A stretch of DNA of 64,000 nucleotides from Alteromonadaceae bacterium. Lineage in GTDB: Bacteria > Pseudomonadota > Gammaproteobacteria > Enterobacterales > Alteromonadaceae. The first letter of the stretch is position 1, and each line of letters begins with the position of its first letter. Shown piece by piece: positions 37,608 through 64,000 of this stretch. Where the stretch lies: the NCBI GenBank assembly GCA_027013165.1, contig JALUXV010000219.1, forward strand, positions 1-64,000. Reading direction: 5' to 3'. The translations under genes and the position numbers were made by a program. The notes under the pieces were generated by a model. That model made no database searches, was not told the origin of the DNA, and worked only from the letters and a program-made list of their open reading frames with translations.

Positions 37608-37854
37608 GGCTGTCGTTTTTGTTAGTAAGCTTTTCAGGTTTATCATATGGATACCTGCACTGTTTTTGGTCTTTTCAGTGATATCGGGGCTTGGATTTTT
37701 TTATTATCTATTGGTCTTAACATTGTTTTTCTATGCTACAGATAAATTCAATAAGTTTTATTTTGCGGGTTTAGAAGTGATTTCGAAACAGTTTTTAATC
37801 AAAAGTATGTTGTTGTTATTAGTTCAGTTCTTATTTTTGTTTATTCTGTTTTAG
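37597..37854 (+). CDS. Small membrane protein, candidate Rhs immunity protein
   Basis: An 85-residue, strongly hydrophobic protein with two or three membrane helices (IIWIPALFLVFSVISGLGFF; the C-terminus MLLLLVQFLFLFILF). Its ATG overlaps the rhs stop by 11 bases, the usual position of an Rhs immunity gene. A membrane-located immunity protein would suggest that the cognate tip acts at or crosses the inner membrane; this is inference. No family recognised. Confidence 0.6.
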   Translation: MTIRAVVFVSKLFRFIIWIPALFLVFSVISGLGFFYYLLVLTLFFYATDKFNKFYFAGLEVISKQFLIKSMLLLLVQFLFLFILF

Positions 37855-37890
37855 TTTCATCAATTTTACGGTCAACAATCTTTTTGAATC

Positions 37891-37922
37891 CAAAGCCTCG
37901 CATTCGCGGGGCTTTGTTTTTT
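37891..37922 (+). terminator. Terminator after rhs and the candidate immunity gene
   Basis: Stem CAAAGCCTCG (37891-37900) with the complementary strand ending GGCTTTG (37910-37916), one T-G pair, followed by TTTTTTG. A good intrinsic terminator that separates the active rhs unit from the displaced tip downstream. Confidence 0.8.
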
Positions 37923-38021
37923 GACATCAACCGTGTGGACCTAAAAGACTTGGCTATAATTATAAAGTACTGTACTAATTACATTTTATTGATAATGTAC
38001 TATGGCTCGTAGTGTCGAAAA

Positions 38022-38411
38022 ATGAATATGCAGGCACGATACTATGATCCGGTTATCGGGCGTTTCTATTCGAATGATCCTATTGGAGCACTTGAACATA
38101 TGCAAAGTGGAAATGGTACTCAAGGGTTCAACAGGTTTGCGTACGCTAACAATAATCCTTTCAAGTACATTCATCCAAATGGAAGGAAAATCAAGCTCAT
38201 AACCGAAGAAATGAATGTATTCAAGTTTAGAAAGCAATATGCTGAGGCCAAAAAACAGCTAGAGGAGGCCGGGGAAGGTTCCTACTTACAAGAACTAGAA
38301 GACTCAGAGACTGTAATTACTATTACAGATACATCTGGATTTCACGATTTATCCTACGACAACAATAATATTAATTGGGATCCTACAAGTGGCTTAAAGG
38401 TTGATGGTTGA
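38022..38411 (+). pseudogene. Displaced Rhs tip: core end plus truncated M91-like peptidase domain
   Basis: A 129-codon frame without signal peptide or ribosome-binding site. It begins with the Rhs core end (MQARYYDPVIGRFYSNDPIG, then NRFAYANNNPFKYIHPNG) and continues into a different tip of about 75 residues. The tip includes SYDNNNINWDPTSGLKV, a phrase that in Rhs-linked M91 (NleD-like) peptidases comes just before the HExxH zinc motif. The frame stops right after KVDG, so the catalytic motif is missing. It is best seen as a silent cassette displaced when the current tip arrived, then truncated by a later rearrangement. Confidence 0.7.
38026..38184 (+). repeat. Rhs core-end repeat, copy 2 (displaced tip)
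   Basis: A diverged copy of 37006-37164 at a constant offset of 1020 bases, without insertions or deletions. It supplies the homology through which this tip could recombine back onto the full-length rhs gene. Confidence 0.85.
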
Positions 38412-41842: not shown

Positions 41843-42931
41843 ATGTCGTTAGAACTGAAAAGTGTTAGCCATGTCGTAGGGGCAGAAACGTACCTAGATG
41901 ATATAAGCGTAACGCTAAACCAAGGATCATTTAATGTGTTGCTTGGTCGTACATTAGCGGGCAAAACTACGTTGATGAGAATCATGGCGGGCATCGAGGC
42001 TCCTACGAGCGGCTCAATCATAATGAACGGAGTTGATGTAACTGGCGTACCGGTGCAACAGCGCAACATATCTATGGTATACCAACAGTTTATAAATTAC
42101 CCAAATTTAACTGTTTTTGAAAACATTGCATCGCCTCTAAGATTGTCAAAGGTCAGCGAGAGCGAGATTACAAAAAGAGTTAAAGAGACGGCTGATATCC
42201 TTCAAATATCACAATTTCTGAACCGTTACCCGTTGGAGCTGTCTGGAGGACAACAGCAAAGAACTTCTATGGCTCGTGCGCTTGTCAAAGACGCCAGCCT
42301 TATTCTATTTGATGAACCACTAGTAAACCTTGACTACAAGTTACGAGAAGAGCTAAGGGCTGAATTACGTACGATATTCAAAGAGCGAAACTGTATCGCC
42401 GTTTATGCTACTACTGAGGCCAATGAGGCATTAGCGCTAGGTGGTGAAACTACGCTTCTCCATGAGGGCAAGCTACTTCAAAACGGTAAGTCTCAAAGCG
42501 TGTACAAGTTTCCTGAACGCATAGAATCGGCAAAGCTTTTTAGCGAACCACCAATGAATTTAGTGCCCGGCTCATTAACAGAGAACGAAATTACTTTCGA
42601 GGGTAGCGTTCATTTTCCAATTGATGACTCGATGAGGCAGTTACCAAAAAAGGATTATGTTTTTGGGGTCCGTCCAAATCACCTTAGTTTATCTCCACGC
42701 GATGATAAAGACATTGAGCTATCAATGACTGTTGAATTGGCAGAAATAAGCGGGTCTGAAACGTTTATTCATGTATATAAAGACGGTTTTTCGCTTGTAC
42801 TTCAGTTAGAGGGTGTTGTTGATTTGCACATAAACAGCGAGATAAGCGTTTATTTGCCGCCCAACAAGTTATTCGTATTCGACAAAAGTGGAAAAACGGT
42901 TAAGTTCCCCAGCACGGCAGTGGAGGTATAA
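41843..42931 (+). CDS. glpS: Glycerol ABC transporter ATP-binding subunit, GlpS-like
   Basis: A 362-residue ABC ATPase of the MalK/UgpC architecture with a C-terminal TOBE/MOI region (from about 240). Walker A is GRTLAGKTT (about 35), the signature LSGGQQQR (about 133) and Walker B LILFDEPLVNLD (about 155). The H-loop His is replaced in VYATTEANEAL, so its own ATP site is probably weak, while it supplies a good LSGGQ to its partner. Start behind GGGGGA, two bases before GlpT. The order S-T-P-Q-U-V matches the glycerol transporter of Rhizobium leguminosarum. Confidence 0.85.
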   Translation: MSLELKSVSHVVGAETYLDDISVTLNQGSFNVLLGRTLAGKTTLMRIMAGIEAPTSGSIIMNGVDVTGVPVQQRNISMVYQQFINYPNLTVFENIASPLRLSKVSESEITKRVKETADILQISQFLNRYPLELSGGQQQRTSMARALVKDASLILFDEPLVNLDYKLREELRAELRTIFKERNCIAVYATTEANEALALGGETTLLHEGKLLQNGKSQSVYKFPERIESAKLFSEPPMNLVPGSLTENEITFEGSVHFPIDDSMRQLPKKDYVFGVRPNHLSLSPRDDKDIELSMTVELAEISGSETFIHVYKDGFSLVLQLEGVVDLHINSEISVYLPPNKLFVFDKSGKTVKFPSTAVEV

Positions 42932-42933
42932 AC

Positions 42934-44049
42934 GTGGCTGAAATACATCTTAAATCTCTTGCGCATAGTTACAGTAAGAATCCGACTAGCGCTTCACAAT
43001 ATGCGATCCGAGAAATGGACCATATTTGGGAAGACGGCGGTGCTTACGCATTACTGGGTCCATCTGGTTGTGGTAAGAGTACATTACTCAACATTATTTC
43101 GGGGCTCCTTTCTCCATCTGAAGGCAAGGTACTCTTTGACGGTGTTGAGGTAAACAACATTCCACCAGAAGATCGTAACATTGCACAAGTCTTTCAGTTT
43201 CCAGTCATATACGACTCAATGACAGTTTTTGACAATTTGGCCTTTCCGCTGAGGAATATGAAAGTCCCTGAAGTAAGAGTAAACACAAGAGTCAATGAGA
43301 TCGCTGAAGTACTCGAGCTTGAGGAATTGTTATCTAAGCGAGCTAAGAATCTTACCGCTGATGAGAAACAGAAGGTTTCGATGGGTCGAGGTCTTGTGAG
43401 AAGTGATGTATCAGCAATCCTTTTTGATGAGCCGCTTACCGTTATTGATCCTCATTTAAAATGGAAACTACGCCGCAAGCTAAAGCAAATCCATGAGCAG
43501 TTTAACATTACCATGGTGTATGTGACTCACGACCAGCTTGAGGCATCCACCTTCGCAGACAAAATAGCAGTAATGTACGGCGGACAGATAGTTCAGTTTG
43601 GTACGCCAAGAGAGTTGTTCGAGCGACCCAATCATGCATTTGTTGGATATTTTATTGGTAGCCCGGGAATGAACCTTGTCGAAGTGGAGAGAGCCGATGG
43701 TGGGGTAATGTTTAACTCTATAAAGGTTCCTTTGGATAACTCAATAAATGCGATTCTCAATGAGTCAGCGTCTACTAACATCAAAATAGGCATTCGCCCC
43801 GAATTTGTTCATGTGTGGGAGGAACCAACCGACGGTGCTTTTGAATGCAGATTAAAAGTAGTTGAGGACTTAGGTACATACAAAATCCTATCAATCGATC
43901 TTGACGGTGTTGAATTTAAGGCTCGAATTGAAGAGGACGCTCCTGTACCTACAGATAAAGTTTACATTAGCTTTCCCGAACAATGGTTGAAAGTATACTT
44001 GGACGAATACCTTGTCGATCCAACTCATGATGCATTGGAGGGAGCATAG
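42934..44049 (+). CDS. glpT: Glycerol ABC transporter ATP-binding subunit, GlpT-like
   Basis: A 371-residue ABC ATPase, starting at a GTG behind TGGAGG. Walker A GPSGCGKST (about 42), Walker B AILFDEPLTVID and the H-loop YVTHDQLEA are canonical, but the signature is degraded to LTADEKQK (about 139). With GlpS this makes an asymmetric pair: one composite site from GlpT Walker motifs plus the GlpS LSGGQ is complete, the other is degenerate. It is not the GlpT glycerol-3-phosphate antiporter of E. coli despite the shared name. The next gene follows within 2 bases. Confidence 0.85.
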   Translation: MAEIHLKSLAHSYSKNPTSASQYAIREMDHIWEDGGAYALLGPSGCGKSTLLNIISGLLSPSEGKVLFDGVEVNNIPPEDRNIAQVFQFPVIYDSMTVFDNLAFPLRNMKVPEVRVNTRVNEIAEVLELEELLSKRAKNLTADEKQKVSMGRGLVRSDVSAILFDEPLTVIDPHLKWKLRRKLKQIHEQFNITMVYVTHDQLEASTFADKIAVMYGGQIVQFGTPRELFERPNHAFVGYFIGSPGMNLVEVERADGGVMFNSIKVPLDNSINAILNESASTNIKIGIRPEFVHVWEEPTDGAFECRLKVVEDLGTYKILSIDLDGVEFKARIEEDAPVPTDKVYISFPEQWLKVYLDEYLVDPTHDALEGA

Positions 44050-44051
44050 TA

Positions 44052-44918
44052 ATGAATAAGGTTCAAAACAATAAAGCATGGTTTCTTGTATTGCCAGTGT
44101 TCGCACTGGTCGCTTTCTCGGCAATTATCCCGATAATGACAGTCGTAAATTACTCTGTCCAAGATATATTTGATCAAAACAATGCTTACTTTGTGGGTGC
44201 CGAATGGTATCGAGAAATGTTAAGCAGTCCAAGGCTACTTGATTCTTTATTGCGTCAATTTGGATTTTCATTTGCCGTTTTGGCTATACAGATTCCATTG
44301 GGGATCGGTGTAGCATTGATGATGCCTGCTAAAGGCAGAATGGCAGCTGTATGGTTGATCATTGTAGCAATTCCTTTACTTATCCCTTGGAACGTTGTTG
44401 GCACTATATGGCAAGTATTTAGCAGAGAAGATATCGGCTTATTTGGTTGGTCAATCAACGCGATTGGGATTGATTATAATTATGCGTCTAGTCCAATTGC
44501 TGCATGGATAACTGTAGTACTGATGGATGTTTGGCACTGGACGTCGTTGATAGCCTTACTCTGCTACTCCGGACTGAGAGCTATTCCCGAAGCATTTTAC
44601 CAAGCGGCACGTATCGATAGGGCATCACGTTGGGCTGTTTTCCGTTACGTTCAACTACCCAGGCTGCGAAGTGTTCTAATTATTGGTGTACTCCTCAGAT
44701 TCATGGACAGCTTCATGATCTACACAGAGCCATTTGTATTAACTGGCGGTGGTCCGGGTAACTCGACAACATTCTTGAGTCAAGAACTCACTAAAATGGC
44801 GATTGGACAGTTTGACTTGGGACCAGCTGCAGCGTTTTCACTGATTTACTATCTGATTGTACTACTAGTTTGCTATCTATTTTTCACAATCATTACCCAT
44901 CAAGACAAAGTTAAGTAG
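44052..44918 (+). CDS. glpP: Glycerol ABC transporter permease, GlpP-like
   Basis: A 288-residue inner membrane protein with six helices and the EAA loop of binding-protein-dependent permeases (IPEAFYQAARIDRASRWAVFRYVQLPRL). It is the MalF-type partner of GlpQ. The first helix (FLVLPVFALVAFSAIIPIMTVV) follows a short cytoplasmic N-terminus. It lies two bases after glpT, in the middle of the operon. Confidence 0.85.
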   Translation: MNKVQNNKAWFLVLPVFALVAFSAIIPIMTVVNYSVQDIFDQNNAYFVGAEWYREMLSSPRLLDSLLRQFGFSFAVLAIQIPLGIGVALMMPAKGRMAAVWLIIVAIPLLIPWNVVGTIWQVFSREDIGLFGWSINAIGIDYNYASSPIAAWITVVLMDVWHWTSLIALLCYSGLRAIPEAFYQAARIDRASRWAVFRYVQLPRLRSVLIIGVLLRFMDSFMIYTEPFVLTGGGPGNSTTFLSQELTKMAIGQFDLGPAAAFSLIYYLIVLLVCYLFFTIITHQDKVK

Positions 44919-44927
44919 GAAAAGCCG

Positions 44928-45734
44928 ATGGAAGACAACAAATACAAAAAATTTGGAATATCAGCATTCGGTGTATTCCTGTTTTTACCAATCTATTGGT
45001 TGATAAATATGTCGTTTAAGACAAACGAGGAAATTCTAGGTGGGCTGACGCTTTGGCCCCAAAATTTCACGCTGGACAACTATGTTCAAATTTTTAGCGA
45101 CCCAACATGGTATATGGGATATGTAAATTCAATCGTTTATGTCTGTATCAATCTGGCAATAACGCTTGCGCTTGCATTACCAGCTGCATACGCGTTTAGT
45201 CGATACAAATTCATGGGTGATAAACATCTCTTCTTTTGGTTGTTGAGCAACAGAATGGCTCCACCTGCTGTTTTTCTACTACCTTTTTTCCAGCTATACA
45301 GCTCAGTTGGGTTGTTTGATACACACCTAGCAGTTGCATTGGCTCACTGTCTGTTTTCAGTACCTCTTGCCGTTTGGATATTGGAGGGTTTTATGTCTGG
45401 CGTGCCAAAGGAAGTTGATGAGATAGCGTACATTGACGGGTACAGCTTCCCCAAGTTCTTTTTAAAAATATTCTTACCCATGATTCGCTCTGGGATTGGA
45501 GTCACCGCGTTCTTTTGTTTCATGTTTTCATGGGTTGAGTTACTGCTTGCCAGAACGTTAACTTCCGTTGAGGCGAAACCAATCGCGGCAATTATGACAA
45601 GGACTGTTGGTGCTGCCGGTATTGACTGGGGGCTATTAGCTGCAGCTGGGGTCTTAACGATTATACCGGGTGTTGTAGTAGTTTGGTTTGTACGAAATCA
45701 CGTTGCGAAAGGTTTCGCACTCGGTAGAGTTTAA
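44928..45734 (+). CDS. glpQ: Glycerol ABC transporter permease, GlpQ-like
   Basis: A 268-residue MalG-type permease with six helices and the EAA loop VPKEVDEIAYIDGYSFPKFFLKIFLPMIRSG. It pairs with GlpP. The start follows AGGAAAAGCCG. The name follows the Rhizobium glpSTPQUV operon; it is not the glycerophosphodiester phosphodiesterase GlpQ of E. coli. Confidence 0.85.
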   Translation: MEDNKYKKFGISAFGVFLFLPIYWLINMSFKTNEEILGGLTLWPQNFTLDNYVQIFSDPTWYMGYVNSIVYVCINLAITLALALPAAYAFSRYKFMGDKHLFFWLLSNRMAPPAVFLLPFFQLYSSVGLFDTHLAVALAHCLFSVPLAVWILEGFMSGVPKEVDEIAYIDGYSFPKFFLKIFLPMIRSGIGVTAFFCFMFSWVELLLARTLTSVEAKPIAAIMTRTVGAAGIDWGLLAAAGVLTIIPGVVVVWFVRNHVAKGFALGRV

Positions 45735-45757
45735 GACATCTCATTGGAGGGTAAATT

Positions 45758-46030
45758 ATGAATTGGATGGCGTGGACACCGCTTACAGTAGCTTTCTTTG
45801 GTGTGATTGCAACAATACTTATTGCGATGACAGCATTTGAAGTAAAGAAGCCTTGCAAAGAAAGAAAGGGATTTCTCCCTATAGAAACAACGCGTGGTGA
45901 CCGATTGTTTATCGGTCTCTTGACGAGCGCATACATCCATCTTGCGTTTATCGCATTTACTCAGCTATCACTTTACATCGCGCTTGCGTTGTCAGTGGTA
46001 TGGCTAATGTCGATACTCAGGTGGGGGTAG
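45758..46030 (+). CDS. glpU: DUF2160 small membrane protein, GlpU-like
   Basis: A 90-residue protein with two or three hydrophobic helices (MNWMAWTPLTVAFFGVIATI at the start, LSLYIALALSVVWLMSIL at the end) around a basic loop with RKGFLPIETTRGDRLFIGLL, which is the DUF2160 signature. The start follows TTGGAGGG. It occupies the U position between permease and binding-protein genes of glycerol ABC operons. Function unknown, perhaps assembly or regulation of the transporter. Confidence 0.8.
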   Translation: MNWMAWTPLTVAFFGVIATILIAMTAFEVKKPCKERKGFLPIETTRGDRLFIGLLTSAYIHLAFIAFTQLSLYIALALSVVWLMSILRWG

Positions 46031-46034
46031 AAAA

Positions 46035-46156
46035 GTGAATTTAGGAGCACTGGCCAATCTAAATTGGGAAAAGAGCAGCCAGTGCACCTAAAAACCTGCG
46101 TAAGCGCAGGAAGCGACGTGTCGATGTGACTCGACACCAACTGCTGTAAAATTCAC
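46035..46156 (+). ncRNA. Cloverleaf-like structured intergenic RNA between glpU and glpV
   Basis: A closing stem GTGAATT (46035-46041)/AATTCAC (46150-46156) encloses three hairpins. H1 is TAGG-a-GCACTGGC (46042-46054) with GCCAGTGC-a-CCTA (46078-46090). H2 is CCTGCG (46095-46100) with CGCAGG (46105-46110). H3 is GTGTCGA (46118-46124) with TCGACAC (46131-46137). All stems are perfect except one A-A mismatch. The element fills the gap between the permease part of the operon and the binding-protein gene. It may stabilise the downstream mRNA so that more binding protein is made, or sense a signal; no known riboswitch class was recognised. Confidence 0.6.
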
Positions 46157-46223
46157 ACAGTATGCTACTGGACGGAGTTTATCAGCAAAATATAACAATC
46201 TCAAAATAATGAGGTCATTAAAC

Positions 46224-47954
46224 ATGATACTAAAAAGACTCAAACTGGCTGTATTTGTAAGCTCAGCGCTCACACTCGGAGCAACATCACTGGCAGCCAT
46301 TGCTGATCCGTCTACAGATATTGCGGAACGACTGATTTCAACAGAATTCACGGAGTCGACACTCACTAAGCAAGAGCAAATGGAAGAGTTAATGTGGTTC
46401 GTTAATGCCGCTAAACCTTTTCAGGGAATGACAATAAATGTAGCGTCTGAAACGATTGCTACTCACGAGTATGAATCTCAGGTTTTAGCACGCGCGTTTA
46501 GTGAACTCACCGGTATTACTGTCGTCCACGATTTAATCCAAGAAGGTGATGTTGTTGAAAAACTGCAAACTCAAATGCAATCTGGCCGTAACATTTATGA
46601 CGCGTACATTAATGATTCCGATCTTATTGGGACTCATTTCAGATATGGGAAAGTGGTTCCTGTGTCAGATATGATTGAAAACGAAGCCAAAAACCTGACA
46701 CTGCCGACTCTAGATCTGCAGGACTTTATTGGTCTCGACTTTACAACAGGACCAGACGGTAAGTTGTACCAACTACCTACACAGCAGTTCGCTAATTTGT
46801 ACTGGTTTAGGGCTGATTGGTTTGAGCGCGAAGACCTTAAAAAGCAATTTAAAGAAATTTATGGGTATGAGCTTGGCGTACCACTTAATTGGTCGGCTTA
46901 TGAAGATATTGCGGACTTTTTTACCAATACTGTTAAGAGTCTAGATGGTGAGCGTGTATACGGTCATATGGACTACGGTAAGAAGGATCCTTCTTTGGGC
47001 TGGCGTTTCACAGATGCTTGGTTCTCTATGGCAGGAGCGGGCGACCCTGGATTACCAAACGGACTCCCTGTGGATGAGTGGGGCATTCGTGTCGAGGGGT
47101 GTCGTCCAGTAGGTGCAAGTGTATCTAGAGGTGGCGCTACCAATGGCCCCGCTGCAGTTTACGCAACAACAAAATACGTTGACTGGTTACGAGACTATGC
47201 ACCACCACAAGCACAAGGTATGACATTCTCAGAAGCTGGACCAGTACCTTCACAAGGTAATGTGGCTCAGCAGATTTTCTGGTACACAGCTTTCACCGCC
47301 GCAATGACTTCTCCAGGACTACCCGTTGTTAACGAAGATGGTACGCCTAAGTGGAGAATGGCCCCATCTCCCAAGGGACCTTATTGGGAAGAAGGGATGA
47401 AACTTGGCTATCAAGATGCCGGTGCGTGGACTTTCATGAGCTCAACTCCTGAGAAGCGTCGTTTAGCAGCTTGGCTATATGCCCAGTTTACTGTTTCGAA
47501 AACAGTTTCACTTATGAAAACATTAACCGGTTTAACGCCAATAAGAGAATCAGACTTAAACTCTCAACAAATGACAGACGCTGCACCGAAGCTCGGTGGA
47601 CTGGTAGAGTTTTACCGAAGCCCTGCGCGTTCGCAGTGGACGCCTACCGGAACTAATGTTCCAGACTACCCAAAACTTGCTCAGCTGTGGTGGCAGAATG
47701 TTGCTGAAGCGGCGAGCGGTGAAAAAACTCCGCAGGAAGCACTAGACAACCTTGCACGAGCTCAGGACCGAGTTATGCAAAGGCTTGAACGAGCAAATGT
47801 TCAAGGAGAGTGTGGCCCCAAACTTAATGAAGAGCGCGATCCAGAGTACTGGTTAAATCAGCCTGGCGCTCCCAAAGCGCGTCTTAATGATGAAAAACCT
47901 CAGGGCAGAACAATTGCCTATGAGGAACTTCTAGAGAGCTGGAAAGCTGATTAG
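46224..47954 (+). CDS. glpV: Glycerol ABC transporter substrate-binding protein, GlpV-like
   Basis: A 576-residue periplasmic protein with a signal peptide (MILKRLKLAVFVSSALTLGA, cleavage near AIA). It is much longer than usual sugar-binding proteins, as known for GlpV of the glycerol system. Visible parts: INVASETIATHEYESQVLARAFSELTGI, the long central lobe with FANLYWFRADWF, and the C-terminal DPEYWLNQPGAPKARLNDEKP typical of this family. I chose the ATG at 46224, because GAGGT sits 8 bases before it; the ATG at 46209 overlaps that site. Last gene of the importer. Confidence 0.85.
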   Translation: MILKRLKLAVFVSSALTLGATSLAAIADPSTDIAERLISTEFTESTLTKQEQMEELMWFVNAAKPFQGMTINVASETIATHEYESQVLARAFSELTGITVVHDLIQEGDVVEKLQTQMQSGRNIYDAYINDSDLIGTHFRYGKVVPVSDMIENEAKNLTLPTLDLQDFIGLDFTTGPDGKLYQLPTQQFANLYWFRADWFEREDLKKQFKEIYGYELGVPLNWSAYEDIADFFTNTVKSLDGERVYGHMDYGKKDPSLGWRFTDAWFSMAGAGDPGLPNGLPVDEWGIRVEGCRPVGASVSRGGATNGPAAVYATTKYVDWLRDYAPPQAQGMTFSEAGPVPSQGNVAQQIFWYTAFTAAMTSPGLPVVNEDGTPKWRMAPSPKGPYWEEGMKLGYQDAGAWTFMSSTPEKRRLAAWLYAQFTVSKTVSLMKTLTGLTPIRESDLNSQQMTDAAPKLGGLVEFYRSPARSQWTPTGTNVPDYPKLAQLWWQNVAEAASGEKTPQEALDNLARAQDRVMQRLERANVQGECGPKLNEERDPEYWLNQPGAPKARLNDEKPQGRTIAYEELLESWKAD

Positions 47955-49318: not shown

Positions 49319-50221
49319 ATGGGCGAGTCAGTCAAAATTAAATTAGAGATGATAAAGCGTATAAGTAGGGATCACGGGTTTATTGCTGCTCTAGATCAGA
49401 GTGGCGGTAGCACACCAAGTGCACTCAAACGTTACGGTGTCTCTTCGGGGCTTTATGACGATTCTGAGAGTATGTTTGAATACGTACATGACATGCGTTC
49501 AAGGTTGATTAAGGATAAAGCTTTTGATGAGGAATTTGTTTCAGGGGCTATATTGTTTGAAGATACATTTGATCGATTCATTGACAATATTCCTACAGCG
49601 AAATACCTATGGGAAAAGAAAAGAATCGTTCCATTCCTTAAAATTGATTGTGGTCTGAGGGATGTGAAAAATGGCGTTCAGGCAATGAAGTATATTCATG
49701 ACCTTGATGCAAAGTTAACAAAAGCGAACGCAAACAATGCATTTGGCACAAAAATGCGTTCATTAATACAAGAAGCAAACCCAGAGGGAATTAGGCTGGT
49801 AGTTCAACAGCAATTTGCTATTGCCAAAATCATTATGTCCAAAGGGTTGGTGCCAATTATAGAACCAGAGATATCAATTTTTTGCGACGATAAAACGTTG
49901 GCAGAGCAGTTGTTAAAGCAAGAGATCGAATCGAAGTTAGATGAGCTAGAGAGCTTACAAGTAGTAATGCTTAAGTTAACCATACCTGAGGTACCCAATT
50001 TTTATTCAGATTTAACTTACCACCCGAACGTATTGAAAGTGATTGCGTTATCTGGTGGCTATAAAATGGCAGAAGCCTGCAATAGGCTAAGTAAAAATAA
50101 TAAAGTAGCTGCAAGTTTTTCGCGTGCTTTGTTAGAGGGACTTTTCTTCTTTCAGTCATCTGAGGATTATACGAAACAGCTCTCCTATAATATTCAGAAA
50201 ATCTTTGATGCGTCTGCTTGA
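49319..50221 (+). CDS. fda: Class I fructose-bisphosphate aldolase
   Basis: A 300-residue Schiff-base aldolase of the short bacterial class I type (as in Staphylococcus aureus). Seen: HGFIAALDQSGGSTPSALKRYG, FVSGAILFEDTFDR, VPFLKIDCGL, GTKMRS, LVPIIEPEISIF, VMLKLTIPEVPNFY (containing the likely Schiff-base Lys) and VIALSGGY, ASFSRALLEGL. It interconverts DHAP plus glyceraldehyde-3-phosphate and fructose-1,6-bisphosphate. In this island, between glycerol uptake and the fructose-1,6-bisphosphatase genes, it fits gluconeogenic flow from glycerol. Confidence 0.92.
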   Translation: MGESVKIKLEMIKRISRDHGFIAALDQSGGSTPSALKRYGVSSGLYDDSESMFEYVHDMRSRLIKDKAFDEEFVSGAILFEDTFDRFIDNIPTAKYLWEKKRIVPFLKIDCGLRDVKNGVQAMKYIHDLDAKLTKANANNAFGTKMRSLIQEANPEGIRLVVQQQFAIAKIIMSKGLVPIIEPEISIFCDDKTLAEQLLKQEIESKLDELESLQVVMLKLTIPEVPNFYSDLTYHPNVLKVIALSGGYKMAEACNRLSKNNKVAASFSRALLEGLFFFQSSEDYTKQLSYNIQKIFDASA

Positions 50222-55236: not shown

Positions 55237-56405
55237 CTAGTCTTGTGTCTGTGATGAAGAAATATGATTTAGTAACAATGACCTTGTGTCAAAATTAGGT
55301 GAGGAAGTTGTGGCACTTTCTATCCATTCATAAACTACTGAGGCAGACCATTTAGGCTTAGTAAGAAATGACCCGAGTGTAGAAGTATTGGTTCGATCTA
55401 ACTCCGTAACAATGGTAGTGTAAACATGGTCGTTTAACACAGTGCTGTCAATTTTACGCTCATACAAAAAAAATAGTTTTAAAGCCAAACCACCTTCCAT
55501 AAAGTGCCCCCCTAAGCTTACGTCGATAGCCCCGGTGTTGATTAGTGGTATTGTTCGAGGTGACCAATCTATACTGCCTACAACAAGCATATCTCTTTTT
55601 GTTGGAGTGAGTTTTGACAGTGCATCTATGGCTCCATAGGCCATAATGTCACTAGCTATCCAATACGCATCAACTTCTGGATGTCTTATCATGGACCGTG
55701 CAGTAATATTTGAAGCTTCAGACTCACGCCATCTGCCATCTACAACGTTATATAAGATAGAGTTACCGTCTTGTTGTATCCAAGATTTTAACCCTCGCTG
55801 CCTTTGACGACTCACCGAGGCATATTTCAATCCAGAAATACCAAAAACGTTGACGTTGCAGTCAATCTCAATGCAGCTTTTCTTAATACGAGCTCGTTGT
55901 ACTACTTCACGTGCTAATCTATGACCTAACTCCTCATCATTAGGTGATATGTGAGCCAGCCAATGATGGTATTTTTCACGAGGTCCACCAAGCAATCGCA
56001 ATAGCTTCTCGTCAAGGTAGGAGTTTATAGAAATGAAACGGGTATATGGTTTTCTTCGATTGCCTCAAGTAACAGTCGCTCTGCGCCCATCCAAAATGCG
56101 CTTATTACAAGAGCTGGTTTGCTATCGAGCTGGTCGATTGTGCTTATTGCAAACTCTACTATGTTGAATCTATCTCTGAATTCGATTGGTACATATACAA
56201 CTTCTAATTCAAAGTTAAGAGCCTCAGCAGTAAATTTAGCGTAATCAATTGTGCTTTCCCAAAACGGAAATCCAGGATCAGCGTTTACTAGCATAAGGAC
56301 TTGAGATCCTTTTAATTGTAACTCTTCAGAGTATGAGGGGAAAGTCGCTCCAAGTGCGAGAATGAAAAAGATGGCTATACTTCTCAACTTTATATTTGAA
56401 AACAC
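55237..56405 (-). pseudogene. Periplasmic sugar-type binding protein, split by a frameshift
   Basis: The first frame (56405-56025, GTG start behind AAGGA) has a signal peptide (IFFILALGATFPSYS) and the first lobe of a type I periplasmic binding protein (GSQVLMLVNADPGFPFWESTI, PALVISAFWMGAERLLLEAIEENHIPV). It ends at SFL. The second frame (to 55237) continues the same protein in another phase (ISINSYLDEKLLRLLGGPREKYHHW, then DAYWIASDIMAYGAIDAL and DMLVVGSIDWSPR). One extra base near 56035 would restore a single protein of about 389 residues. It may be a true pseudogene or a sequencing error. It resembles LuxP/TorT-like sensor binding proteins more than importer subunits. Confidence 0.75.
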
Positions 56406-57188: not shown

Positions 57189-58280
57189 CTACTTTAGGTT
57201 TACGTCCGGAGCTTGTACCAGTTTTCCTGTTGCGCTAAACACGAATAGCTTATGTGACGGTATGTATACTTTTAGTTTTGTGTCTGGACTATAATCATGT
57301 ACACCAGACAAATTCATTAGTAAATTTATGTTGTTGCCAACAGTGTGAATGAGGGTTTCAGAACCACTTATCTCTGCGATGTTGACACACATGGATATTT
57401 CTAAATCGTCGTCATTTGTAGGTACCAAACTAACGTGACTGGGTCGAATTGCTAGTATATATTTACCCGCTGGAAGCTGCTCCAGCATTCGTGTTTTTGG
57501 GAATCTTTGTGTTTCCCCCAGTAGTATTTCATGGGGTGTGATCTCGCCCTCTAGTATGTTTAATGGTGGATCGGATAATATTTGAGCAGCTGTGAGATTG
57601 ATTGGTTTTCGATATATCTCAGCGATGTCTGAAGCTTGTAGTATTTTTCCTTCATGCATTAGTAGTGCTTGGCTACCAAGTTGCAATGCCTCGTTCGGTT
57701 CTGCCGTAGCATAAACGCAAACAGTGTTTGTTGAACGAAAAAGATGCTTTAGTTCATTTCTTAGTTCTTCCCTTAACTTATAGTCCAAGTTAACCAGAGG
57801 CTCATAGAGACAAACTAGCTTTGCATCTTTTATTAGTGCTCGCGCTAATGCAGTTCTTTGCTGCTGTCCTCCAGAGATTTCGCTAGGTAACCGGTTCAGA
57901 CACGATTCTATCCTGAGCTTCTTTGCAATGTCGTAAACGGCTCTTCGGATTTGAGGTTTGGGGATTTTTAATACGCGAAGCGGAGAGGCGATGTTTTCAT
58001 ACACCGTAAGATGCGGGTAGTTTATGAATTCCTGATGAACCATCGCGGCGTTTCTCTTTTGAGTTGGTAGGTCTGAGGCGTCCTTTCCATCTATCAGAAT
58101 TGTGCCTGAGGTGGGCTGAATAATTCCTAAAAGCAACTTACAAATTGTGGCTTTTCCGGCATCATCGGACCTACCGCTTAGTAGTATTGTGAAGCTGCCG
58201 GATGGGAGATCCATCGAAATATCATTAACGGGCTCCGATGAATCTCCATTGTAAGAAACGTTTTTAAATACTATCGACAC
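57189..58280 (-). CDS. GlpS-like ABC ATPase paralogue with damaged nucleotide-binding motifs
   Basis: 363 residues, colinear with the GlpS-like subunit at 41843 (FINYPHLTVYENIASPLRVLKI, NRLPSEISGGQQQRTALARALIK, PLVNLDYKLREELRNEL and the TOBE region). Walker A reads GRSDDAGKAT (about 33-42), with one extra residue and Ala instead of Ser/Thr after the Lys. Walker B reads LVCLYEP in place of LILFDEP, so the magnesium-binding Asp is lost. The ISGGQ signature is intact. It probably cannot hydrolyse ATP itself but could still complete the active site of GlpT. It lies downstream of glpK on the same strand, away from the transporter operon. Confidence 0.85.
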   Translation of the reverse strand: MSIVFKNVSYNGDSSEPVNDISMDLPSGSFTILLSGRSDDAGKATICKLLLGIIQPTSGTILIDGKDASDLPTQKRNAAMVHQEFINYPHLTVYENIASPLRVLKIPKPQIRRAVYDIAKKLRIESCLNRLPSEISGGQQQRTALARALIKDAKLVCLYEPLVNLDYKLREELRNELKHLFRSTNTVCVYATAEPNEALQLGSQALLMHEGKILQASDIAEIYRKPINLTAAQILSDPPLNILEGEITPHEILLGETQRFPKTRMLEQLPAGKYILAIRPSHVSLVPTNDDDLEISMCVNIAEISGSETLIHTVGNNINLLMNLSGVHDYSPDTKLKVYIPSHKLFVFSATGKLVQAPDVNLK

Positions 58281-58379: not shown

Positions 58380-59861
58380 CTAATTAACTTGAACCCGTTT
58401 AATGGACTCTACCCACCCATCATATAGGTAGTCTCTTTTATCCTTGGACATCTCTGGATAAAAACGATTCTCGACTTGCCATTTTTCAGACAATTCTGAA
58501 AGCGAATTAAAAACCCCAACATGCAACCCTGCGAGATATGCTGCTCCTAGCGCTGTTGTTTCAGTTACCGCAGGCCTATCTACAGAGGCGCCCAAAATAT
58601 CCGCTAAAAATTGCATTGCCCAGTTATTCTCAACCATACCCCCATCGACTCTTAAAACATTCGGGCGAACTCCGTCTTTCTCCATCGCTTTTTGAAGATC
58701 CTTCGATTGATAACAAACGGATTGTAGTCCCGCGGTAACAATCTCTTTAATTCCTGTATCTCGGGTAAGGCCAAAGATCGCGCCCCTAGCGTTTGGGTCC
58801 CAATAAGGCGCCCCAAGACCCGTAAATGCTGGAACCATGTACACGCCGTGCTCCAATGATGTATCTTCGGCTAATGGCTCGGCATCTGCCGCTTTATCAA
58901 TGAGCTTCAATCCATCTCTCAACCATTGAATAGTTGCACCAGCAACGAATATACTCCCCTCTATTGCGTAAGTCGGTTTACCGTCGAGCTGGTAGGCGAT
59001 GGTTGTGAGAAGTCGGTTTGATGACCTAAGAGCCGTGTCGCCAGTGTTTAGCATCATAAAGCAGCCTGTTCCATAGGTGCTCTTTGCCATACCCTTACTA
59101 AAGCATGCTTGCCCAAAAAGAGCTGCTTGTTGGTCCCCAGCGATACCTCCTATGGGGATTTCACAACCAAAAATGCTTTCATGTGTATGCCCAAACGAGT
59201 CTGACGAATTCATAACCTGAGGAAGCATTTTTTCTGGAATTCCAAAGAGGTCAAGTAACTCTTTATCCCATTTGAGCTCGTGAATGTTGTATAACATTGT
59301 ACGTGATGCGTTTGTCGCGTCAGTTTTGTGCGAATTTCCGTTAGTAAGCTTCCAAAGCAAATAGGTGTCGATAGTACCAAATGCAAGATGACCTGCTTCT
59401 GCCTTTTCTCTGGCCCCATCGACATTATCTAGCAACCATTTAATTTTGGTTGCCGAAAAGTATGGATCAATAAGTAGCCCCGTTTTCGACGCAATAAATT
59501 CTTCCAAACCTTCGTTTTTGAGACTCTCACAGTATTCCGTGGTCCTTCTGTCCTGCCAAACTATTGCACTGTATATCGGTACTCCAGTCATTCTGTTCCA
59601 GACAACTGTTGTCTCTCTTTGGTTTGTTATTCCTATCGATTTGATATCTTCCACGTTGACGTTCGACTTTGCAATTGCTGCTGTTGCCGTAGTGAGTACA
59701 GATGACCATATTTCCTCGGGGTCATGTTCGACCCACCCGTTGTCTGGGAAACGCTGTTGGATTTCTATCTGCGCTGAGCCGACGGTAGCTCCTTCGGTGT
59801 TAAAGAGTATCGTTCGAGAGCTAGTTGTCCCTTGGTCAATTGATAAAATAAAATCGGTCAT
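58380..59861 (-). CDS. glpK: Glycerol kinase
   Basis: A 493-residue FGGY-family kinase that makes glycerol-3-phosphate. Seen: [87 protein letters not shown] and [18 protein letters not shown] with the C-terminal FGGY signature region. The length matches the family. It is divergent from glpD across a 528-base gap with GlpR-like repeats, and a GlpS-like gene follows 99 bases downstream. Confidence 0.96.
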
Positions 59862-60389: not shown

Positions 60390-61922
60390 ATGGCGAATGT
60401 TAAGCAACTTAGTTGCGACTATGATGTTTTTGTAGTTGGAGGAGGAGTCAACGGTGTCGGGATTGCGCTAGACTCACAAGGGCGTGGACTCAAAACCGGG
60501 CTTTGCGAGATGAGCGACCTAGCTTCAGCGACCTCGTCAAATAGCTCAAAGCTTATCCACGGCGGGTTGAGATATTTAGAGTATTACGAGTTTCGACTTG
60601 TTCGAGAGGCACTAGCGGAACGAGAAACGTTGTTAAGCGTCGCTCCTCACATCATGTGGCCAATGCGATTTCGGCTACCACATCGGCCACACTTAAGACC
60701 CGCTTGGTTAATCAGAATGGGATTATTTTTGTATGACAATTTGGCCAAACGGGCTACGCTGAAAGGGTCAAAGGCAATTAGTTTTAAGAAATCTAACACC
60801 CTACAGCCGCATCTGGTAAAGGGGTTTGAGTATTCAGATGGTTGGGTAGACGATGCTAGGTTGGTAGTTTTGAATGCGCTCGGAGCAAAAGAGAGAGGAG
60901 CTGATATTTTTACTCGCACAAAATGTATAGGTGCGAAGAGAGACACCACTAGTAAACGTTGGATAATTTCGCTTGAAGATACTATCACTTCAGCAAAGAC
61001 AGAAGTAACGGCTAAGGCAGTTGTAAATGCTGCAGGACCTTGGGTTTCTAAGTTTTTTGACGAGTCACTAGAAACCGACGCCCCAAAACAGATTCGCATG
61101 GTCAAGGGCAGTCACATTGTTGTCCCTCGAATCCATGATGAGCAAGAATCGTACATTCTCCAAAATGAGGATGGACGAATAGTGTTCGTAATCCCCTATG
61201 AGCAGAATTTTTCACTAGTTGGAACGACAGACGTAGAGTACGAGGGCGATCCTCGTTCAGTATCTATATCTCAAGATGAAGTTGATTATCTTGTGAACGT
61301 GACGAATGAGCATTTTACTGCCCAGATAAGTGCAAATGATATTGTGCATTCATACTCAGGAGTGAGGCCGTTGCTGGATGACGAGGCGGAGAATCCGGAT
61401 GCAGTAACAAGAGATTATACCTTTGAATATGAAGCTAGCGATTCTAAAGCACCTTTGCTTTCGATATTTGGCGGTAAAATCACTACATACAGAAAGCTTG
61501 CACAAGCGGCTGTTGACAGGTTATGCGAGGAGTTCCCTCAAGCAAAAGCCTGTAGAACATCTATAGAACCGCTTCCGGGTGGCAATTTCCCTAATCAAAA
61601 AATGTTGTTAGAGCAATATGTACAGACTTATCCATTTATAGACAAATCAGTTCTGGAAAGATATGTACGCACTTACGGCACGAGAACGTCAGTAATCTTG
61701 AAGGATGCGACTAAAATTAGTGATTTGGGGCGAGAGTTTGGCCATGGACTTTTCGCAGCCGAGGTAAAGTACTTGATCGAGAACGAGTGGGCTCTTACGG
61801 TTGATGATATCGTTTGGAGGCGCACCAAGTTAGGATTAGTTCTCAATGATGGTCAAGTCGAATCTTTAACCTCTTTCATTAGTTCTGAACAAAAAGCTGA
61901 TGAAAAGACCCAAAGCGCGTAA
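60390..61922 (+). CDS. glpD: Aerobic glycerol-3-phosphate dehydrogenase
   Basis: A 510-residue flavoprotein that oxidises glycerol-3-phosphate to dihydroxyacetone phosphate and feeds electrons to quinone at the inner membrane. Seen: the FAD-binding VFVVGGGVNGVGIALDSQGRG, SSKLIHGGLRYLEYYEFRLVREALAERE, DARLVVLNALGA, VVNAAGPWVSKF, GTTDVEYEGDP and GVRPLLDD with the C-terminal GGKITTYRKLA. fbp follows within 12 bases, so both are on one transcript. Confidence 0.95.
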   Translation: MANVKQLSCDYDVFVVGGGVNGVGIALDSQGRGLKTGLCEMSDLASATSSNSSKLIHGGLRYLEYYEFRLVREALAERETLLSVAPHIMWPMRFRLPHRPHLRPAWLIRMGLFLYDNLAKRATLKGSKAISFKKSNTLQPHLVKGFEYSDGWVDDARLVVLNALGAKERGADIFTRTKCIGAKRDTTSKRWIISLEDTITSAKTEVTAKAVVNAAGPWVSKFFDESLETDAPKQIRMVKGSHIVVPRIHDEQESYILQNEDGRIVFVIPYEQNFSLVGTTDVEYEGDPRSVSISQDEVDYLVNVTNEHFTAQISANDIVHSYSGVRPLLDDEAENPDAVTRDYTFEYEASDSKAPLLSIFGGKITTYRKLAQAAVDRLCEEFPQAKACRTSIEPLPGGNFPNQKMLLEQYVQTYPFIDKSVLERYVRTYGTRTSVILKDATKISDLGREFGHGLFAAEVKYLIENEWALTVDDIVWRRTKLGLVLNDGQVESLTSFISSEQKADEKTQSA

Positions 61923-61933
61923 GGTGTTGTTAC

Positions 61934-62923
61934 GTGGAAGAATTTATGACTAGAAGTTTAGAAACGCGCCTTGAAGAGCAGGACATTCCTGCGGAGCTGA
62001 CACTTCTTATTAATAGTATAATGAAAGGGTGTCTACAGATAGCAAGTTTGGCTAGCTCTGCCTACCAAGAGGATATATTAGGCGATTCTGGTATAACGAA
62101 TGTACAAGGCGAGTCTCAAAAGAAACTTGATACTCTCAGTAATGAAATCCTAAAAGACACGATCATAAACACTGGAGTCGCTAGAGCGCTGGCATCAGAG
62201 GAAGAAGAGACTGTTGTAGAGTGTGATGGTGAAGCATCTTATTTAGTTTGTTTTGATCCGCTGGATGGTTCATCTAACATCGACGTAAACGGATCTATCG
62301 GAACTATTTTTTCAATAATGTCTGTTGAAAAAGGCTGCGATTGGAATGAGTCGAGTTTCTTAAGAAGCGGCAGGGCTATTGTTTCCGCTGGTTATGTTCT
62401 TTACGGCGCTTCTACCGTGGCAGCTATCTCTGTTGGCAAGGGGACTGACTTGTACGCGTTAGATAATATAGAAAAAGCCTTTCTATTGACAAATCCTGGC
62501 GTTCAAATTCCTACCCATTCTAATGAAGTCGCTCTAAATATGCTCAATCAGAGACTATGGGATGATGGATTTAAAGCATATGTTGAAGATTTGGTACAAG
62601 GCTCCGAGGGACCAAGAAAAATTGACTTCAAAATGCGATGGTTCGCATCAATGGTCGGTGATTTGCATAGGATTTTTGTTAGAGGTGGTTGTTTTGCGTA
62701 CCCGCGATTGAGGTCTTCTCATGGCTGGAGAGCTAAGCTAAGAATTTTATATGAAGGTGCGCCAATGGCTTTTTTAATTGAACAAGCTGGCGGTTCCGCG
62801 ACTAACGGGTTTGAATCGATTCTTGATGTTGTTCCTAGCAACATACATCAAAGAGACGCTGTCATCGTTGGTTCAAATGAAGAAGTCGCTATCTGTGCGT
62901 CCTATATCCAAGGCTTGTGTTGA
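61934..62923 (+). CDS. fbp: Class I fructose-1,6-bisphosphatase
   Basis: A 329-residue enzyme that removes the 1-phosphate from fructose-1,6-bisphosphate, the committed step of gluconeogenesis. Metal and substrate residues are all present: the acidic ALASEEEE loop, FDPLDGSSNIDVNGSIGTIFSI (about 108), YVLYGAST and RWFASMVGDLHRI. Late in the protein, KLRILYEGAPMAFLIEQAGG includes the metal-binding Glu after Tyr. A GTG at 61934 and an ATG at 61946 are both possible starts. It follows glpD by 12 bases, which ties it to glycerol use. Confidence 0.93.
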   Translation: MEEFMTRSLETRLEEQDIPAELTLLINSIMKGCLQIASLASSAYQEDILGDSGITNVQGESQKKLDTLSNEILKDTIINTGVARALASEEEETVVECDGEASYLVCFDPLDGSSNIDVNGSIGTIFSIMSVEKGCDWNESSFLRSGRAIVSAGYVLYGASTVAAISVGKGTDLYALDNIEKAFLLTNPGVQIPTHSNEVALNMLNQRLWDDGFKAYVEDLVQGSEGPRKIDFKMRWFASMVGDLHRIFVRGGCFAYPRLRSSHGWRAKLRILYEGAPMAFLIEQAGGSATNGFESILDVVPSNIHQRDAVIVGSNEEVAICASYIQGLC

Positions 62924-62977: not shown

Positions 62978-63988
62978 ATGTGTGGGTCTGAAATGAAATT
63001 TCTAGACACAAAACTTTCAGAAGACGGGTGTCCTGCAGAGCTTTTAAGCATTATTAAAACCGTATTATCTGGTTGTAAGAAAGTTTCGAATATACTTTCG
63101 TCTGGAGATTTCAATCATCTATCATTCGAACCAAACGCTGCTAAGCACGATGATGAAATACAAACTCTCAGCGCAATATCAGACAATATTCTAAAGAATC
63201 TTCTCATTGGCCACACTCATTTGAAAGCAATTGCTTCTAAACAGGATGGTCAAATCACTTCGGTAAATGAGGATGGTAAGTACCTTTTAAGTTTCGACCC
63301 GCTAGATGGAACTTCAAATATTGACGTCAATGGATTAGTAGGAACAATTTTTTCTATTACTTTATCGACGGACTGGTTGTCCTCCTTTAGCGAAAAGCAA
63401 TTTATTAAACCTGGCGAACTAATACAAGCCGCAGGGTTTGTACTCTACGGACCGACTACTTCACTTGTATTGACAACTGGAAAAGGTACACATATTTACA
63501 AACTTTCCAGGGAATATGGAGACTTTGTGCTTTTGAGAGACAATATTGTCATACCTAAAGACACTAGAGAGTTTTCAGTGAATATTGGCAGGCAAAAGTA
63601 TTGGCCCGAGCGAATAAAGAAGTTCGTCACTCAATTTATCGATGGGCGATACGGTACTGGTAAAAAAGACTACAGTCTTCGATATTCTGGTTCGTTAGTT
63701 GGAGAAATCTACAGAATACTGTGTCGCGGAGGAGTGTTTCTCTATCCGCAAGAGGGCACAAGAAGACATCGTTTAGGAAATGGTAAGTTAAGGTTGGTTT
63801 ACAAAGTAATGCCAGTGTCATTCATTGTTGAACAGGCAAATGGTTTAGCGTTCGCCGATAAAATGAGAGTACTAGACATATTGCCTACAACCATGACACA
63901 GCGAGCTCCATTAATCATTGGTTCAAAGCATGAAGTAGAGCGTTACGTCAAAGCAGATAAAAAAGGAGAAAGTAATGCGCAAAAATAA
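62978..63988 (+). CDS. Fructose-1,6-bisphosphatase-like paralogue lacking metal ligands
   Basis: A 336-residue protein colinear with the preceding fbp (CPAELLSIIKTVLSGC, then FDPLDGTSNIDVNGLVGTIFSI, YGPTTSLVL, YSGSLVGEIYRI, QRAPLIIGSKHEV). The acidic ASEEEE loop is changed to ASKQDG (about residue 86). The Glu in the late LYEGAPM motif is Lys (LVYKVMP, about residue 274). In class I enzymes these positions hold the magnesium, so catalysis is doubtful. It may regulate or hetero-oligomerise with the active neighbour. It lies 54 bases after fbp, and the next frame starts inside its last codons, preceded by AAAAGGAGAA. Confidence 0.88.
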   Translation: MCGSEMKFLDTKLSEDGCPAELLSIIKTVLSGCKKVSNILSSGDFNHLSFEPNAAKHDDEIQTLSAISDNILKNLLIGHTHLKAIASKQDGQITSVNEDGKYLLSFDPLDGTSNIDVNGLVGTIFSITLSTDWLSSFSEKQFIKPGELIQAAGFVLYGPTTSLVLTTGKGTHIYKLSREYGDFVLLRDNIVIPKDTREFSVNIGRQKYWPERIKKFVTQFIDGRYGTGKKDYSLRYSGSLVGEIYRILCRGGVFLYPQEGTRRHRLGNGKLRLVYKVMPVSFIVEQANGLAFADKMRVLDILPTTMTQRAPLIIGSKHEVERYVKADKKGESNAQK

Positions 63989-64000
63989 ACTAATTGTTGC
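63975..64000 (+). CDS. Start of a further gene, cut by the window edge (possibly triosephosphate isomerase)
   Basis: An ATG at 63975 follows a strong GGAG and overlaps the end of the FBPase-like gene. Only MRKNKLIV can be read. Triosephosphate isomerases often start with a similar short basic segment before VAGNWKMN, and this enzyme is the one step missing from the island's glycerol-to-fructose-6-phosphate route. The identity is a guess; 8 residues cannot prove it. Confidence 0.35.

Follow-up and report, generated by a model that had tools for sequence, protein, structure and literature searches.

A divergent fructose-1,6-bisphosphatase paralogue lacking most catalytic residues, encoded beside a catalytically equipped homologue in a glycerol gene island of an Alteromonadaceae bacterium

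In this study, we analysed a window of 64,000 nucleotides (positions 1-64000 of a 65,927-base contig) from the draft genome of an Alteromonadaceae bacterium, an assembly of 586 contigs with a reported contamination of 6.5%. The window ends in a run of four forward-strand genes. These are glpD (60390-61922), encoding glycerol-3-phosphate dehydrogenase; fbpA (61946-62923, with an alternative GTG start at 61934), encoding a divergent class 1 fructose-1,6-bisphosphatase (FBPase) that keeps its catalytic residues; fbpB (62978-63988), encoding a divergent class 1 paralogue without most of them; and the start of tpiA (triosephosphate isomerase, TIM; 63975-64000), which continues to position 64709 of the contig. 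No terminator-like site is listed between fbpA and fbpB, fbpB and tpiA overlap by 14 nt, and an AAGGAG resembling a ribosome-binding site lies at 63963-63968, ahead of the tpiA start at 63975.

The four genes belong to a glycerol island that occupies the later part of the window, the first part holding genes that by eye have an ordinary chromosomal look. The island comprises, in order, a sigma-54 type activator, the glycerol ABC transporter genes glpS, glpT, glpP, glpQ and glpV (41843-47954, +), a porin-like gene, a fructose bisphosphate aldolase of the PRK05377 type (49319-50221, +), which makes the FBPase substrate, two chemoreceptor-like genes, a second glpS, glpK (glycerol kinase; 58380-59861, -), glpD, fbpA, fbpB and tpiA. 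Database matches name the aldolase, glpK, glpD, tpiA and the ABC ATPases, and the other island genes were assigned by eye; the names glpS, glpT, glpP, glpQ and glpV follow the Rhizobium system. Between the chromosomal genes and the island lies a long repeat gene with a separate Rhs-like tip behind it (32991-38411, +), presumably of Rhs type to judge from its repeats. Just past tpiA, the contig ends within a helix-turn-helix, transposase-like gene (L004 3216-4028, -), which hints at a mobile island or at an assembly break caused by a repeat. Elsewhere the same genome carries a further FBPase, of housekeeping type, and a further TIM, and it gave no match to the class 2 FBPase GlpX; the island pair is therefore additional.

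The fbpB reading frame comprises 336 codons with no internal stop, and its likelier start is the ATG at 62993, which gives MKFLDTKL and aligns with MKRLNSQL of the housekeeping protein. Both Pfam FBPase domains exceed their cut-offs (PF00316 at 101.9 bits against 34.8, PF18913 at 122.9 bits against 27), which places fbpB in the class 1 FBPase fold family. Its best score of 310.6 bits falls below the NCBIfam class 1 FBPase equivalog cut-off of 349, whereas fbpA passes it (NF006779, 380.8 bits). One open frame with both domains complete rules out an artefact or frameshift. A named non-catalytic FBPase family was also considered and rejected, as only class 1 FBPase models were matched, and searches of Pfam and NCBIfam matched no extra domain in FbpB. 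The first-pass annotation had described an FBPase paralogue directly behind a fully equipped fbp, and this description holds, given the intact frame and the retention of every catalytic residue in fbpA.

Compared with the class 1 FBPases of pig liver, human muscle and Leishmania, fbpB shares the PF00316 and PF18913 domains, the length, the DPLDG(S/T)SN motif, the sugar-phosphate residues and the trans-acting arginine, and differs in lacking the equivalents of Asp74, Glu97, Glu98 and Glu280 and in having an altered dynamic loop that is one residue shorter. Pig residue numbers were placed on these sequences by motif, with reference to PMC3785478 and PMC5639204. According to these papers, human muscle FBPase binds metal 1 through Asp118, Asp121 and Glu280, metal 2 through Glu97, Asp118 and the carbonyl of Leu120, and metal 3 through Glu97 (PMC3785478), and Asp74 and Glu98 form the proton-abstracting pair of FBPase (PMC5639204). 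At the positions of Asp74, Glu97, Glu98 and Glu280, all of which are unchanged in fbpA and in 105 of 105 other FBPases, fbpB has Ser65, Lys88, Gln89 and Lys276. The metal-ligand set Glu97, Asp118, Asp121 and Glu280 thus reads Lys, Asp, Asp, Lys, and the proton-abstracting pair reads Ser65 and Gln89. By alignment, Lys88 and Gln89 lie within the ASKQDG codons (63233-63250, +) and Lys276 is the AAA codon at 63803-63805 (+). Counted from the substitutions, the net charge over the four lost positions changes by about +6, including two lysines at metal-ligand positions. The dynamic-loop equivalent (about pig 52-72) and the Asp74 position together span 63107-63172 (+), an extent obtained by counting along the alignment, and the loop acid at the pig Asp68 position is kept as Glu60.

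Other residues of the active site are kept. The equivalents of Asp118, Leu120 and Asp121 are in place, as is the phosphate-loop motif except for a change of Ser to Thr. The substrate-binding set and the trans-acting arginine are represented by Asn202, Arg235, Tyr236, Tyr256, Lys270 and Arg272, equivalent to pig Asn212, Arg243, Tyr244, Tyr264, Lys274 and Arg276; Arg243 is the trans-acting arginine of the pig enzyme. The equivalents of Asn212, Arg243, Tyr264 and Arg276 are invariant in the 105 other FBPases and that of Lys274 is found in 103 of them, while at the Tyr244 position, where fbpB has Tyr, 102 of the 105 have Trp. In the AMP site, by eye on the alignment, the equivalents of Lys112 and Tyr113 are present and those of Thr27, Thr31 and Arg140 are absent. 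The changes from SEEEE to SKQDG and from the late Glu to Lys, with DPLDG kept, had been pointed out in the first-pass annotation and were confirmed in the alignment. The loss proved larger than its three altered ligand positions, extending to the change of Asp74 to Ser, the missing loop residue and 13 of 47 invariant columns. That FbpB is catalytically dead, as was also claimed there, is well supported: because the metal ligands and the proton-abstracting pair are lost together, FbpB is, on its sequence, almost certainly inactive as a phosphatase.

To place these losses among other FBPases, 109 distinct frames of at least 250 aa were collected, of which the 107 of at least 300 aa were aligned and two shorter ones dropped; as the comparison proteins were retrieved for their similarity to P0001 or P0002, they sample one bacterial family rather than all FBPases. 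Where the other sequences are at least 97% identical, fbpB differs at 27 of 85 columns, followed by two distant FBPases (17/86 and 15/86) and then fbpA (12/84), the median over the 107 sequences being 0. At columns strictly invariant in the other 106 FBPases it kept 34 and lost 13, which in housekeeping numbering are G59F, N65K, G68D, D75S, N79D, E98K, E99Q, E100D, S122T, D187S, N215R, E284K and H315T. The losses gather in the loop and ligand segment (alignment columns 79-136), where 14 of 20 conserved columns are changed against 13 of 65 elsewhere (Fisher p = 6e-5, for a segment chosen after seeing the data).

The two island genes are not close duplicates. The identity of fbpB to fbpA is 33-36%, and fbpB is closer to the genome's own housekeeping FBPase, at 42-43%; a simple recent tandem duplication of fbpA is therefore rejected. 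Identity to any listed relative reaches at most 50% for fbpA and 44% for fbpB. In a quick tree of 47 FBPases, both fell in a seven-row group with the housekeeping type of the family (support 98), on branches of 2.4 (fbpA) and 3.6 (fbpB) changes per column against a median of 0.19. Their pairing within that group had a support of 44 and was flagged as long branches meeting. When either was left out, the remaining one stood nearest the housekeeping type in a supported group of 12 rows, its exact place within it being unsupported. Both a tandem duplication and two separate events are thus possible as the origin of the pair.

We observed fbpB, so far, in a single genome. Among the 59 genomes of the genus, no orthologue was found besides fbpB itself, with listed matches at or below 44% identity, and nothing above 44% was found among the best matches listed in 395 family genomes (390 with a match), among matches at E 1e-85 or better in 394 order genomes, or among those at E 1e-80 or better in 369 class genomes, samples that overlap one another. 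For fbpA, no relative in the genus exceeded 50% identity, and in 274 class genomes only the housekeeping gene of the same genome matched at E 1e-98 or better. A single-protein scan of the genome_contigs collection (84,980 species; the genome of the window may be absent from it) returned no relative, using short exact words that reach close relatives only. No relatives of fbpB were found on viral contigs. In a search of plasmid DNA, no record covered 80% of the query and the annotated features under the listed matches were glpD, and protein matches of P0001 on plasmids and phages were at most 41% identical among those listed. A search for the pair in other genomes had been proposed, and none was found in these samples; the absence of fbpB from all 58 other genus genomes is, to the letter, the outcome that the first-pass annotation had named as counting against it, and it weakens a general role without implying that the gene is dead.

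The genome_contigs collection was also scanned for the Glu280 motif with another codon, which gave six stretches, two of them matching FBPase by tblastn; the scan is blind to replacement codons beginning with G and to FBPases otherwise changed in the motif, and its intact-Glu form matched 108 of 132 loci. Both matching FBPases carry Lys at Glu280 and come from metagenomes, one from Latescibacterota (contig L128 3910-4957, -) and one from Eisenbacteria (contig L131 3285-4286, -). By eye, both keep the Glu97-Glu98 and Asp74 motifs; a frame change interrupts the former and an in-frame stop the latter.

The transporter part of the island is found more widely. No match to glpV at E 1e-50 or better was found in the other 58 genus genomes, and matches at E 1e-150 or better occur in 34 of 335 order genomes (own genome included), with identities of 82% in genomes G144 and G496 and 81% in Photobacterium sp. 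GJ3. Glycerol ABC transporter islands (glpSTPQV) elsewhere share the transporter and regulator genes with the present one and differ from it in having no fbpA-fbpB-tpiA run in the stretches read. These surround glpV at 32 loci, which come from two named plasmids and from 19 of the 33 other order genomes that carry the gene. Only in genome G632 did an FBPase gene adjoin glpV among these loci (L174 15031-16074, -), a class 1 gene with intact catalytic motifs; an fbp gene may thus have entered glycerol islands on more than one occasion. Side-by-side complete FBPase genes were absent among the matches listed for 44 family genomes, picked by eye and mostly with more than one match. BLAST found no glpD, glpK or glpV homologues in the stretches fetched at 40 FBPase loci of multi-copy family genomes. 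At five of the 40 (L094, L100, L101, L107 and L121, from four genomes of a single genus), a homologue of tpiA with 38-41% identity to that of the island lies about 1.1 kb upstream of the FBPase gene and on its strand; an fbp gene near tpiA is therefore not special to this island.

Other genes of the island show signs of degeneration. The second GlpS-type ABC ATPase (glpS2; 57189-58280, -) has a lengthened Walker A motif, in which the Lys is kept and the next residue is Ala, and a change of Asp to Tyr in Walker B, while a relative 47% identical to it, near glpK in genome G144 (L160 8158-9282), keeps GKT and DEP. At 55237-56405 (-), two adjacent short frames in different phase resemble the pieces of a single periplasmic binding protein gene whose frame is broken, with a Pfam Peripla_BP_4 match on the longer piece only. 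These two genes are compatible with an island under relaxed selection. The parallel that had been drawn between fbpB and the degenerate ATPase is real, and it cuts both ways, as it also fits such relaxed selection.

What, then, keeps the fbpB frame open? One possible answer is that fbpB is a dying duplicate that was long active and, like fbpA, fast-evolving, that lost its function fairly recently, and whose frame is open by chance or because the overlapping tpiA depends on translation through it. Occurrence in a single genome, the other degenerate genes of the island and the 14-nt overlap all agree with this account. We simulated neutral decay by random mutation at the local base composition, leaving out insertions and deletions as well as selection for translation into tpiA; the former would shorten a final neutral phase and the latter would lengthen it. 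Starting from fbpB itself, 276 of 1000 frames were open at 95% identity and 88 of 1000 at 90%, and a short neutral phase at the end of its history is therefore possible. A long one fares worse. The mutated housekeeping frame was open in none of 1000 runs at 50% identity and in one of 1000 at 60%, and when fbpA was mutated until 13 of 47 invariant residues were lost, only 38 of 3000 frames were still open, none of which combined loss of the four catalytic residues with retention of four substrate residues (a condition set after seeing fbpB). Neutral runs thus rarely end with an intact frame at such divergence, and fbpB has probably been under constraint over most of its history. The pattern of loss also looks non-random, with four catalytic residues gone and substrate residues kept, and tpiA has its own AAGGAG; both points count against decay. 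On balance we consider decay somewhat unlikely.

The converse possibility is that FbpB still works as a phosphatase, on another substrate or with its metals arranged differently. The retained Asp118, Leu120 and Asp121 equivalents and the phosphate loop, apart from its Thr, are consistent with this, as is the existence of the two metagenome-assembled FBPases with Lys at Glu280. It is nonetheless highly improbable, given that each of the three metal sites has altered ligands, that the catalytic base pair is altered along with them, and that none of the four changes occurs in any of the 106 other aligned FBPases. A non-catalytic role is a better fit, and could in principle be played alone: as a metal-free sensor, an FbpB homotetramer would bind fructose 1,6-bisphosphate or fructose 6-phosphate and act on a target other than FbpA, such as GlpK, the aldolase or the sigma-54 activator. 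The kept substrate-binding set and the charge change of about +6, with its two lysines at metal-ligand positions, would suit such a sensor, yet no extra domain was matched, no target is evident, and the position of fbpB beside fbpA points to FbpA first, which makes this version quite improbable.

We now return to retention next to FbpA. The operon position, the open frame at great divergence, the kept substrate set and the kept trans-acting arginine indirectly support a retained non-catalytic role, and we think it likely that selection has kept fbpB as a protein. Whether it acts through a complex with FbpA is a more evenly balanced question, which the co-location of the genes, the trans-acting arginine and the fact that FBPases are typically tetramers raise, and to which it could be objected that fbpA is itself unusually divergent, so that fast evolution of the island, in place of a partnership, could explain much. 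Our favoured reading, to which we give an even chance, is that FbpB is an FBPase subunit without catalytic activity, produced alongside the active FbpA from glpD-fbpA-fbpB-tpiA, a glycerol operon.

Under this favoured reading, glycerol would enter through the ABC transporter and be converted by GlpK and GlpD to dihydroxyacetone phosphate, TpiA and the aldolase would carry it to fructose 1,6-bisphosphate, and FbpA would form fructose 6-phosphate, a route read from the genes present and from well-established pathways. According to PMC5639204, a complete FBPase active site requires an arginine from the adjacent subunit, Arg247 in Leishmania. FbpB may join FbpA in a mixed tetramer and lend its equivalent of pig Arg243 to the FbpA active site. 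Judged by its residues, FbpB would present a sugar-phosphate pocket without known means of hydrolysis, and it could still complete the site of its partner. Its substrate pocket, positively charged and probably metal-free, would then be a ligand-sensing site that tunes FbpA during glycerol flow. A more specific and, as we see it, unlikely version is that FbpB, as a metal-free subunit, senses fructose 1,6-bisphosphate: the lysines of the former metal sites would bind the 1-phosphate and leave it unhydrolysed, while FbpB in the mixed tetramer, with its arginine, both completes the FbpA site and makes FbpA responsive to substrate. A structure prediction of the FbpB monomer gave a mean pLDDT of 36.6 from a two-row alignment, too shallow for inference.

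Dead paralogues that regulate active partners are known. As reported in PMC3663545, a dead paralogue of trypanosomatid deoxyhypusine synthase forms a heterotetramer with the active subunit, and activity rises 3000-fold as a result. Common to both cases is a tetrameric enzyme with a paralogue that is catalytically dead and has an active partner in the same cell; the differences are that the enzyme is unrelated and that assembly and activation, reported there, are only inferred for FbpA and FbpB. As in such prozyme-type pairs, FbpB is without catalytic residues that a partner in the same cell keeps, and conservation of the pair across species was not found in the samples searched. Neither an FBPase pseudoenzyme nor regulation of FBPase by a dead paralogue appeared among the matches listed from the open-licence literature. 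As it is known from one genome only, fbpB may just as well show us a gene on its way to losing function. The FBPase tetramer is allosteric and its active sites need a residue of the neighbouring subunit (PMC5639204), and a natural pair of a dead and an active FBPase would, for this reason, allow a direct test of what each subunit contributes.
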